This document shows, piece after piece, positions 7,839-44,007 of a stretch of DNA of 64,000 bases. The stretch is taken from positions 24,943 through 88,942 of the forward strand of contig CAJJBR010000033.1 of the NCBI GenBank assembly GCA_905182475.1. Direction: 5' to 3'. Within the stretch, counting starts at the first letter, position 1. Each line of letters begins with the position of its first letter. The position numbers were made by a program, and so were the translations under genes. The notes beneath the pieces were generated by a model. That model did not search any database and had not been told where the DNA came from. It was given only the letters and a program-made list of their open reading frames with translations. The DNA comes from Akkermansiaceae bacterium. Lineage in GTDB: Bacteria > Verrucomicrobiota > Verrucomicrobiia > Verrucomicrobiales > Akkermansiaceae.

Positions 7839-10800
7839 ATGAAGGAAACCCCCATTATTACCATGCTCGTGGCGGCCTTCGGCTGCCTTCTCTCGCTGCC
7901 GGAAGCCAATGCTCAGACGGACAGACCCATTGTCATCATGCCGCCCATGCCGCCGCCACGCATCGAAGTCCGCGAGCCGGATGTCGGTGCGATGCAAAGC
8001 CGCGAGATATCGATCAACGTGCGAGTCAACGGACTCCATGCCGTGGTCGAGACCACAATCATTTTCCATAATCCCAACGCCCGCGATCTTGAGGGCGATC
8101 TGGTTTTTCCCCTGCCCGACGGCGCAGCAGTCTGCGGCTACGCACTCGATATCGGGGGATTACTGGTGGATGGCGTGGTCGTGACCAAGGAACGCGCCCG
8201 CGTCGCCTTCGAGACGGAAACGCGCCGCAACGTCGATCCGGGGCTGGTCGAACACATTCAAGGGAACCTCTACCGCACCCGCATCTACCCGCTGCCAGCG
8301 AAGGGCGAGCGCCGCATCCGCCTGACCTACACCACCCCGCTGGTCACCGCAGCTAACGGCGATGCCGCCCTGCTGCTGCCCATGCCGCGCGAGAAAATCG
8401 CCAAATTGAATGTGACGATCGAGGTCGCAGCCCCCGACGGCACTGCGCCGGAAGTTGGCGGACTCGGCGACGCCCGTTTTGAAAGAGCCGAAAAAATCTG
8501 GAGGGTTGAATCCTCAGCCGAGGACACCACGCCCGGCGAAGACGTCCTGGTGGCGTTACCAAAACTGCCAGCCTCGTTTCATCGGATCGAGCGCGATGCC
8601 TTAGGCACCGACCGTTTCATGATCACGACGCTTGCTCCGCTTCCGAAAGCAAAAACAATAGTAAGGGGGCCGATGCATGTTCTCTGGGACGCCTCCGGCA
8701 GCCGCGCCGGGGCTGATCTCACCAAGGAATTCGCCCTCCTCAAACAGAGCAAGGGCACCGGCTACATGCTTACCGTCTTCCGCGATGTGCCGGAAACCAC
8801 CCGCGAATTCGCAACCGTTGATGAACTCATTGCCGCGATCAAGGACGCGCCCTCCGACGGCGGCACGGACATCGCCGCTCTCGCCGCCGCCCTGCGCAAA
8901 CAGCCAGCTCAGGATCCCGGCGCGCGTACCCTGCTTTTCACCGACGGCTTTGACACCCTCTCCGGAGAAACTCTGGAGTTCGGTGGCATCACCCCCGTCG
9001 CCATCGTCTCGCAGACGGTTGCCAATCGTGAGGCTTTGCGGCAGGCCTGCGCCGGGGCGCTGATCGATCTGCAAAGCACCGACCCCGAAGCGGCTTGCTC
9101 GGAAATCGAAAGTCCATCCAGCCGCGTGACCGGCGTGAAAGGCACCGGCATCGCAAACGTCCAGGGCATAGGTCAGCCCGCCCATGGCCGCATCAGTTTG
9201 CTAGGCGAGCTCACCGTGCCGGAGGCCACCGTGCGTATCCTTTATGCCGATGGCTCGGAGTCGGAACCCTTCGTGCTGCGCAGCGCGGATGCGGCCGAGG
9301 GACGCGTCCTCGCCACGGCTTGGGCCGCCGCCCGCGTCAACCGGCTAGCCCCGCGCCCCGATGAATTCGCGGACGAGCTGCTCGCGCTCGGCAGGACTTA
9401 CGGCCTCGTTAGCCCGGCTACCTCACTGATCGTGTTGGAAAGACTCGAGCAATGGGTGCGCTACGAGTTCGAACCTCCGGCCTCCCTGCCGGATATGCGC
9501 CGCCAGTGGAAACAGGCGATGAAAGGCCGCGCCAATCAAAACGATTCCGATCCCGCCCAGCGGCTCGAACAGATCGCTGGGCTGTGGAAGCAGCGTGTCG
9601 CGTGGTGGAAAACCGATTTCTCGAAGGCCAAGGCGGTGCCTCAGAGGAAGGGTGCAGAGGAAGGCGAGAATGCTCCGAGGCTTTCCCAACGAGCCGAGAT
9701 AGCTCCAAACTCCCCCGCATCGGCTGCCGAATTGGACTCATTTTCATCCGATGACCAAAGCAGGGCACTCCGAGGCGGTGGTGGCGGCGGCGGTGGTGGC
9801 TTCGGTAGGGATGCTGCCAAGAAAGAAGGCAATGTGGGCGACGGACCCGCCAGCGCTTCCATCGATATCAAACCCTGGAGTCCGGACACGCCATACCTCA
9901 AGGTCATACGCGCCGCCAAGGACGGCCTGCGTTACAAAGCCTATCTCGGCGAGCGCGGAAAATGGGCGCAAAGCCCGGCCTTCTTCCTCGATTGCGCCGG
10001 GGTGTTTTATGAGGACGGTGACAAAGCCCTCGCCCGCCGTATCCTCACCAACCTCGCCGAGCTGCGCATCGAAGAACCCGGCCTCTTACGCGTTCTCGCA
10101 TGGCGCCTGCAGCAGGCTGGTGAGCACGACCCCGCCACCGTCATCCTGCGCCGCGTCGTCAAGCTCCGCCCGGAGGAACCCCAATCGTTCCGCGACCTTG
10201 CCCTCGCCCTAGCCGAGCGCGGGCGCGTCACTGCATCAAAAGCCGATCTTGAGGAAGCGCTGGGACTTTTCCTGAAAGTCGCTCTCGGAAACTGGGGGCG
10301 CCATGGTGAGAGCATCCCGCTCTTCGCGCTGGAGGAAATGAACGGCCTCATCGCTTGGGTGAAACGGCAGGATTGGCCGAAAGCCAAACAACCGAAGATC
10401 CCCAAATTCGACAAACGCCTGCGCGCAAATCTCGACACCGACATCCGCATCGTCATGTCATGGGATGCAGATTCCACCGACATGGATCTGCATGTCATCG
10501 AACCCGGCGGCGAGGAAGCCAACTACGCCCACAACCGCACCGCCCGCGGCGGGCTTGTTTCGCAGGACATCACCGACGGCTACGGCCCGGAGGAATACCT
10601 CATCCGTAAAGCTCCAACCGGTGGCTACACGATCGCCACCAACTACTACGGATCGAGACAACAGACCGTCGTGGGGCCGGCCACCGTCACCGCCACCGTC
10701 TTCACCAACTGGGGCCGCGCCAACGAGGAGCGCCGCGTTCTCACGATACGCCTCGACAAGGCGAAAGAGAAAATCGACATCGGCACCATCACATTTAGCC

Positions 10801-14238: not shown

Positions 14239-14640
14239 ATGGAGAGAATAGGAAAGATGAATACTAAGCCAAAAATCCTGCTGATTGATGATGAGGTCGA
14301 TTTCACCGAGTTGCTTGCAGCCAACCTTGAAGAGTCCGGCTACGAGGTGCACCAAATCAATGACCCGACCAAGGCGCTGGCTGAGGCACGCTCGTTTCAT
14401 CCGGATATCTGTATCATTGATCTGGTGATGCCGCGCATGGACGGCGGGGATGTTGTGAGTGCATTGAAGGACGATTTCGCCCTTTCGAAAACCCCGGTTC
14501 TAATGCTCACCGCGCTTGTCGAAGAAAACCCGGACGACCCGGGTGAATTGCAGATGAAGGGAGGACTGCCTTTTGTTAGCAAGACCTCTGATCTGGAAGT
14601 GATCATCAACGCGGTCAAAGTCCAGCTCGGCCATCGCTAG
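14239..14640 (+). CDS. Response regulator receiver domain protein
   Basis: KILLIDDEVDFTELLAANLEESGYEV...ICIIDLVMPRMDGGDVV, directly downstream of the histidine kinase. Confidence 0.92.
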   Translation: MERIGKMNTKPKILLIDDEVDFTELLAANLEESGYEVHQINDPTKALAEARSFHPDICIIDLVMPRMDGGDVVSALKDDFALSKTPVLMLTALVEENPDDPGELQMKGGLPFVSKTSDLEVIINAVKVQLGHR

Positions 14641-14707
14641 TGCTGCGTCACACGAAAAAAGATGATTAATATTTTCTGAGCCTTTTCAAAAAATGACAAC
14701 CTGAGCA

Positions 14708-14905
14708 CCCACCACTTTCAGTTACACCCTCTGATTCCTTCCTGCTTTCCTGCCTTCCTCATTAAAACTACATTCTCCCATGTCTCTAGAATCCCGCCGT
14801 AAAATGCGCAGCCGAAGAGGATCCAATAAGGAATGCAGGAATTTCTTTGCCAGTTTCCCACCCATTTCCGTAGTTCTGATTCCGGGCGTAACTGAAAGTG
14901 GTGGG
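14708..14905. mobile_element. MITE-like 198-bp element with 22-bp terminal inverted repeats
   Basis: 14708-14729 cccaccactttcagttacaccc and 14884-14905 gggcgtaactgaaagtggtggg are inverted with 1 mismatch; interior recurs at 42943-43096. Confidence 0.65.
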
Positions 14906-15007
14906 CAGGATTATTTTTGAACTGGCCGGCGTTGTCGTCCGCATAAAACTCCAACGCCTCTATCCTTCAATCGAAGTGTGACAGAACACTAGTCTCTGAA
15001 ATCAACA

Positions 15008-42725: not shown

Positions 42726-42968
42726 TCAATGCCAGAGCTGCGTGACGAGTTTCAGGATGGCAGGATGCATCTTGTATTTCGCATCGGCTACCTGATTGAT
42801 GGGGAGGTGGCTGTAGGTGCCGCCCTTGTGTGTGATTCCGGAAAATAGTTCCTTGGTTGCCGGAACAATCTTGTTGTCAATGAGACCTTTGAGTCCGTCA
42901 CAAACGACAAAGGGATCGTAGCCGCGCTGGATAGCGTATTCGGTTGCGCATTTTACGGCGGGATTCTA
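42726..42968 (-). pseudogene. C-terminal fragment of an unidentified protein, 5' end lost at repeat boundary
   Basis: Reverse frame *NPAVKCATEYAIQRGYDPFVVCDGLKGLIDNKIVPATKELFSGITHKGGTYSHLPINQVADAKYKMHPAILKLVTQLWH*; no start codon before the upstream stop inside the repeat. Confidence 0.5.
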
Positions 42969-43096
42969 GAGACATGGGAGAATGTAGTTTTAATGAGGAA
43001 GGCAGGAAAGCAGGAAGGGATCAGAACTGCGGAAAGGGGTGGGAAACTGGCAAAGAAATTCCTGTATTCCTGCATTCCTTATTGGATGCTCTTCAA
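42943..43096 (+). repeat. Circularly permuted copy of the interior of the 14708-14905 element
   Basis: tgcgcattttacggcgggattctagagacatgggagaatgtagttttaatgaggaaggcaggaaagcaggaagg followed by gatcagaactgcggaaaggggtgggaaactggcaaagaaattcctg...cattccttattggat. Confidence 0.85.
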
Positions 43097-44007
43097 AGTC
43101 CGCGGTATTCCGCAGCGAGGCGCTTTGCGGTGGCGATGGTGTTGCGGTGGAGTTTGGCGGTGAACTCCGGTTGGCGATTGTAGCCTCCACCATAGAGGAT
43201 TGCTACGGGGATGTGGTTTTTGATCATCGCGCGCAGGAGGACTTCGTCGCGGCGTTGGATTTCCTTGAGGGAAAGGTGCATCTGGCCGAATCGGTCGTTG
43301 CGGTGGTTGTCGGCTCCTGAGATCCAGATCACCAGATCCGGAGAGAATTTATCGAGGGCGTCGGCGAGTGTTTTGAACAGCTGCTGAAGATACATTTCCC
43401 CCTCCACGTAGCGGACAGTTTCGACATCCAGGGTGGAGGCGATTTTCTGCGTGGGATAGTTTTTCCCGACGTGGATGGAGTAGGTGAAAACCTGCGGGTC
43501 ATCGCCAAGGATGGAGGCGGTGCCATTGCCTTGATGGGCATCCGTATCGACGACCATGACCTTGATTCCCGGGCGCTTATCTTGGAGGTCACGGATGGCG
43601 ATGGCGATGTCGTTAAAGACGCAGTAGCCCTCGCCGTGCTGGCGGAAGGCGTGGTGGGTGCCGCCTGCGAGGCAAACTCCGACCCCTTCTTCCAAGGCTG
43701 CGTTGCAGGCGAGGCGTGTGGCTTCGACTTCGGTTGCGGAGCGTGAAAAGAGGCTTGAAGATGCGGGGAGGCCGAGGAGGAGTTGTTCCTTGCGGTCGAG
43801 GGCAGCGGACTGGATTTTCTCGATGTAGGAACGGTCGTGGACACGGAGAATGTGGTGGAAATCGGTGGCCTTGACCTCAGTGACCTCTTCCGGGCGGAGA
43901 ATATTTTCCTGAAGCAGCATTTCCTTGGAGACACGGAACTTGTCCATGGGAAACGGGTGACCGCTAGGTAGATCGAGTTCAAAATCCTGTGAGTAAAAGC
44001 AACGCAT
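43093..44007 (-). CDS. Histone deacetylase family protein (second)
   Basis: AGGTHHAFRQHGEGYCVFNDIAIAIRDLQ...VMVVDTDAHQGNGTASI...LVIWISGADNHRNDRFGQMHLS. Confidence 0.92.
   Translation of the reverse strand: MRCFYSQDFELDLPSGHPFPMDKFRVSKEMLLQENILRPEEVTEVKATDFHHILRVHDRSYIEKIQSAALDRKEQLLLGLPASSSLFSRSATEVEATRLACNAALEEGVGVCLAGGTHHAFRQHGEGYCVFNDIAIAIRDLQDKRPGIKVMVVDTDAHQGNGTASILGDDPQVFTYSIHVGKNYPTQKIASTLDVETVRYVEGEMYLQQLFKTLADALDKFSPDLVIWISGADNHRNDRFGQMHLSLKEIQRRDEVLLRAMIKNHIPVAILYGGGYNRQPEFTAKLHRNTIATAKRLAAEYRGL

Follow-up and report, generated by a model that had tools for sequence, protein, structure and literature searches.

The stretch at 42942-43094 of the window (the whole 64,000-nt stretch of DNA analysed) is a real and exact permutation of a repeat present elsewhere in the genome. 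Two modules, A and B, are common to both; they follow each other as A-B at 42.9 kb (42943-43096 in the 154-bp form first delimited) and as B-A on the minus strand near 14.7 kb. Sequence comparison indicates that the A-B stretch is the source and that the B-A copies are derived. In the account that we consider probable as a whole, the 42.9 kb arrangement would be ancestral, a single rotation around a transposon named T would have given the B-A block, and this block would then have spread as a passenger in mini-elements. The permutation has a clear and ordinary explanation through known processes.

The opposite module orders described in the initial annotation were both found where it had placed them. 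The B-A unit lies at 14739-14883 (minus strand, 145 bp; B, 14814-14883; A, 14739-14813) and the length of about 145 bp given there for the unit is correct for most B-A copies; the A-B stretch (42942-43094, plus strand) measures 153 bp. Most B-A copies are without one 8-bp unit of the pyrimidine arm, which is kept in the C15, C67 and C124L copies. After rotation by 78 bases, 42942-43094 matched the C15 copy at 148 of 153 positions with no gap, and the next best of the 153 rotations gave 59 matches. A blastn search of the 154-bp query against the whole genome revealed A and B adjacent at about nine other places, all in the order B-A, with E-values of 1e-29 to 1e-35 for module A and of 5e-19 to 5e-29 for module B, as well as an additional partial A/B copy at one contig end. 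In this search the A-B order appeared only at 42.9 kb and all the remaining copies were B-A in a single phase, which is close to the fixed phase that the initial annotation had itself set against its reading. The AB-AB tandem arrays which it had invoked were not found in the whole-genome search of the draft assembly (144 contigs, several of them ending inside these repeats), and the derived copies in this assembly displayed neither the head-to-tail arrays nor the several phases of a tandemly arrayed or rolling-circle repeat. No match was obtained in an Rfam scan of the 64,000-nt window or among plasmid records, and nothing relevant was found in the literature on permuted MITEs. Two of the B-A copies are in inverted orientation about 10.5 kb apart on C124 (positions 1-148 and 10499-10652 of the stretch examined), each adjoining a RAYT relic that is itself split by a CTAG-flanked hairpin element.

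The A-B stretch lies between two host genes that are contiguous with it on both sides. To its right, a histone-deacetylase-family gene (PF00850, Pfam E 7e-54; 43093-44007, minus strand) has its 3' end at the border, so that module B ends within the stop codon of this gene. To its left is a relic of a 6-phosphofructokinase gene (42726-42965, minus strand) that has lost the start and about 220 internal codons. The first 24 bp of module A (42942-42965, minus strand) are native phosphofructokinase codons, N P A V K C A T, as evidenced by tblastn of a relative's phosphofructokinase, whose match runs from 42965 leftward across the module A border (E 7e-23), and by the PFK HMM match, which also crosses this border and reaches window position 42965. 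The N-terminus of the relatives' enzymes reads MSxxIMTSGGDSAGMNPAVKCA.EYA and the homology in the window begins at N-P-A-V-K-C-A. Two other PFK-family genes are present in the genome, at C19 and C113, and the internal deletion of the 42726-42965 relic is large. Between the genes the stretch folds as a hairpin (DNA folding, z -2.75) with the purine arm AATGAGGAAGGCAGGAAAGCAGGAA at 42992-43016 (plus strand), which recurs in many hairpins of the genus, the loop GGGATCAGA at 43017-43025 (plus strand) and, also by DNA folding, a pyrimidine arm of three units at 43059-43084 (plus strand). The order of purine arm, loop and pyrimidine arm is the usual one in the genus.

The passage from B to A reads CTCTTC|GGYTGCRC in every B-A copy. 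In the source, the left flank reads TATTC|GGTTGCGC and the right end CTCTTC|AAAG, and comparison with them demonstrated that the B::A joint, GGATCCTCTTC|GGCTGCGC, is exactly the two termini of the 42.9 kb stretch brought together at TTC, a 3-bp microhomology. This trinucleotide is located just outside the stretch at the left breakpoint (42939-42941), inside it at the right breakpoint (43092-43094, overlapping the deacetylase stop codon TCA at 43093-43095), and at 14814-14816 (minus strand) in the joint itself. Such a fused joint is the trace expected alike of a microhomology-mediated tandem duplication and of an excised circle.

The call of the initial annotation for a circular or tandem joint is thus supported, and its further proposal, that the unit is itself mobile and propagates repeatedly through circles or tandem arrays, predicts copies in different phases. 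In its favour, there are two phases and the joint is exactly of the circular or tandem kind; however, one phase is found in all copies but the source, tandem arrays are lacking, and the unit terminates in host gene sequence and at a 3-bp microhomology and not in transposon ends. We consider this proposal quite improbable. Repeated propagation is unsupported since a single phase prevails elsewhere, arrays are missing and the copies fit one rotation followed by spread inside mini-elements. Nor is the 42.9 kb stretch a mobile unit in permuted form: the 24 bp at its outer edge encode phosphofructokinase in frame, and at no other copy do these codons run on into the gene relic.

A second cut is recorded in the same copies. 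The B-A copies are opened in the hairpin loop, with the 9-bp sequence GGAATCAGA at both borders (14875-14883 and 14730-14738, minus strand, in the 14.7 kb copy). Directly outside it are CAGTTACGCCC-type and GGGTGTAACTG-type sequences, the two ends of T, and these are what had been described at 14.7 kb as the inverted termini of the unit. There, the right end of T (...CCCACCACTTTCAGTTACGCCC) occupies 14884-14925 and the left end (GGGTGTAACTGAAAGTGGTGGG) 14708-14729, both on the minus strand; in most copies the left end is joined on its inner side to sequence of the mini-element M. T is a dispersed element with inverted ends GGGTGTAACTGAAAGTGGTGGGCAG, and two complete copies of it, of 277 and 896 bp, are bordered by perfect 9-bp target duplications, CTCCAAGAA and CTCTCCAGC; when more intact copies with target duplications were sought, only these two were obtained. 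The fixed length of 9 bp, in both complete copies and at the B-A borders, is a trait of DDE-type insertion sequences. Since T has 9-bp duplications at these two other sites, the border repeat is most simply read as the target duplication made by T in the loop of an A-B copy, where GGGATCAGA, the probable insertion site, is the counterpart of GGAATCAGA with one base different. The possibility that the 9-bp repeat was part of the unit was ruled out, as the T ends that it adjoins have duplications of this same length, 9 bp, at other sites. The T ends stand head to tail around B-A, which is expected from end-to-end joining of an A-T-B arrangement. In the C129 copy a fuller left T end is retained and one base of the left-hand 9-bp repeat is changed, and in the C67 copy the right-hand repeat and T end are absent. 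The right border of the latter (C67:11447-11601) reads GGAAGG|AAAGTCCGAGG, and the source stretch is likewise succeeded, at 43095, by AAAGTCCG. At C66, C30 and C102 another segment (ccacctaagagcc...aacgtcgg) is found between T ends, inside-out like B-A, and may be a second captured piece.

No transposase of T could be assigned among the ORFs near its copies. T-end sequences lie beside or around relics of RAYT (Y1_Tnp) genes, the Y1_Tnp match of one fragment (E 0.0017) being below the Pfam cut-off, and none of the T copies examined was an intact element with a RAYT-like gene between its ends. It could be thought that the hairpin was released as a single-stranded circle by a Y1 tyrosine (RAYT-like) transposase, which would have cut behind TTC at either side, and that T entered later. 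Enzymes of the IS200/IS605 type cut at matching sites on both sides, and here one TTC immediately precedes the stretch on the left, another forms its last three bases on the right, and a hairpin lies in between; moreover, RAYT relics adjoin several B-A copies. Nevertheless, matches of 3 bp often arise by chance, a joint of this kind was seen at no other hairpin, the relics are broken and IS200/IS605 ends were not recognised, so we regard this excision as very improbable. Were this faint chance true, RAYT excision of a hairpin together with adjoining host codons would be a way in which chromosomal DNA could give rise to new families of palindromic repeats.

Returning to the rotation around T, its direction is indicated by the surroundings of the two orders. 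The A-B stretch is regarded as the source because both its ends are in native chromosomal surroundings, the phosphofructokinase codons on one side and the deacetylase stop codon on the other. Only at 42.9 kb do these codons continue leftward into the gene relic; in the B-A copies the gene is represented by these 24 bp alone. C15 and the copy of the related genome G032 have retained GGTTGC as in the source, and the other copies have GGCTGC. The opposite direction, in which B-A was ancestral and the 42.9 kb stretch was a secondary, rotated insertion beside the relic, would agree with B-A being the commoner form and occurring in two genomes; it needs, however, a chance match of 24 bp of in-frame codons (NPAVKCA) at exactly the missing position, and is highly improbable. 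That the 42.9 kb arrangement is an assembly chimera might be suspected in a draft of 144 contigs broken at these repeats, but it is extremely unlikely, given the unique host sequence on both sides and the outer 24 bp, which extend the adjoining gene in frame.

The 14.7 kb copy is contained in M, a 356-bp element (14637-14992, minus strand; CTAG...CTAG) whose ends were read directly and which lies at the CTAG of the stop codon of a response-regulator-like gene (14239-14640, plus strand). In G032 the ortholog of this gene has no insertion: the same two genes border the orthologous site, which is without the whole 356 bp and reads CTAA. The inverted ends of M, CTAGTGYTSYGTCACAC, start at the TA within CTAG, as is usual in IS630/Tc1-mariner MITEs, and bound the copies at 14.7 kb and in C45 on both sides. 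CTAGTG ends, which M shares with the hairpin elements, are typical of IS630-like MITEs. The genome also carries a gene for a DDE_3 (IS630-like) transposase followed by a partly similar end, TTTACACGACACTAG; an end on the other side of this gene was not found. Shared M ends in most B-A copies suggest that the block reached its remaining sites inside M.

From these data the following history can be proposed. A hairpin of purine and pyrimidine arms, typical of the genus, would have stood between the deacetylase 3' end and the truncated phosphofructokinase gene. T would have entered the loop of an A-B copy to give A-T-B with the 9-bp duplication, and A-T-B would have been joined end to end once to give T-B::A-T, either by tandem duplication or through an excised circle recombining with another T. 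The B-A block would afterwards have been spread as a passenger of the CTAG-flanked M, seen directly at one site and presumed for the rest, and an IS630-like transposase acting in trans would probably have mobilised M; alternatively, recombination between T copies could have spread B-A. As no A-T-B intermediate, circle or tandem array is found in the assembly, the order of these steps is only inferred. This absence counts against the account, and so do the source loop being one base off the repeat, the C67 copy lacking the right-hand repeat and T end, the lack of the source in G032, the draft contigs that end in the repeats and the failure to identify a transposase of T.

Among known systems, M and the hairpin elements resemble IS630/Tc1-mariner MITEs in having short inverted ends that start inside CTAG and in needing no gene, and the empty orthologous site of one M and the IS630-like DDE_3 gene followed by a similar end agree with this. 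They differ in that the TA duplication is deduced from CTAG, no intact helper was matched to M, and M holds nested foreign pieces. The genus-wide intergenic hairpin, with its purine and pyrimidine arms, recalls repetitive extragenic palindromes (REP), but no GTAG or CGTC tag was seen at the hairpin ends and the arms are made of AG-rich units of about 8 bp. Target duplications of 9 bp are not expected from Y1 transposition. TIRtrons or TIRYT are RAYT-like genes flanked by terminal inverted repeats (PMC3733652); similarly, T ends are dispersed repeats that border RAYT (Y1_Tnp) relics on one or both sides, although T has 9-bp target duplications and the RAYT relics are broken. Finally, the Burkholderia thailandensis case is reported to comprise IS-linked tandem duplication and circle formation by recombination between two IS copies (PMC9946442); there, too, an insertion element is involved in the end-to-end joining of a segment, but the joint described here is a 3-bp microhomology. 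The present locus is an unusually readable case of a miniature transposon family picking up host DNA, since it displays together the locus of origin, the two joints, the target duplication left by the intervening transposon and an empty site. A permuted repeat need not imply a circularly propagating element, as one rotation before amplification suffices.

The block was also found in G032, a member of the same genus (Verrucomicrobiales), which contains one B-A copy (contig CAJQKQ010000033.1). A scan of public genomes for module A gave this contig alone, and the further genomes searched within the genus gave short matches to the hairpin arms at most. The deacetylase gene of G032 ends with the same CTCTTCAAAG as here, and its locus lacks both the A-B stretch and the phosphofructokinase relic even though the B-A block is in the genome. 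Since G032 holds B-A and not A-B, either the source was lost there or the block arrived horizontally. In the G032 copy (264-460 of the stretch examined) the run of GCAGGAAGG units in the purine arm is expanded; the T that contains this copy has a counterpart here (C80), which is devoid of the B-A block. Elsewhere in the same genome, a detached duplicate of the last 53 deacetylase codons is located at 1497-1631 of the stretch examined of G032:C28.
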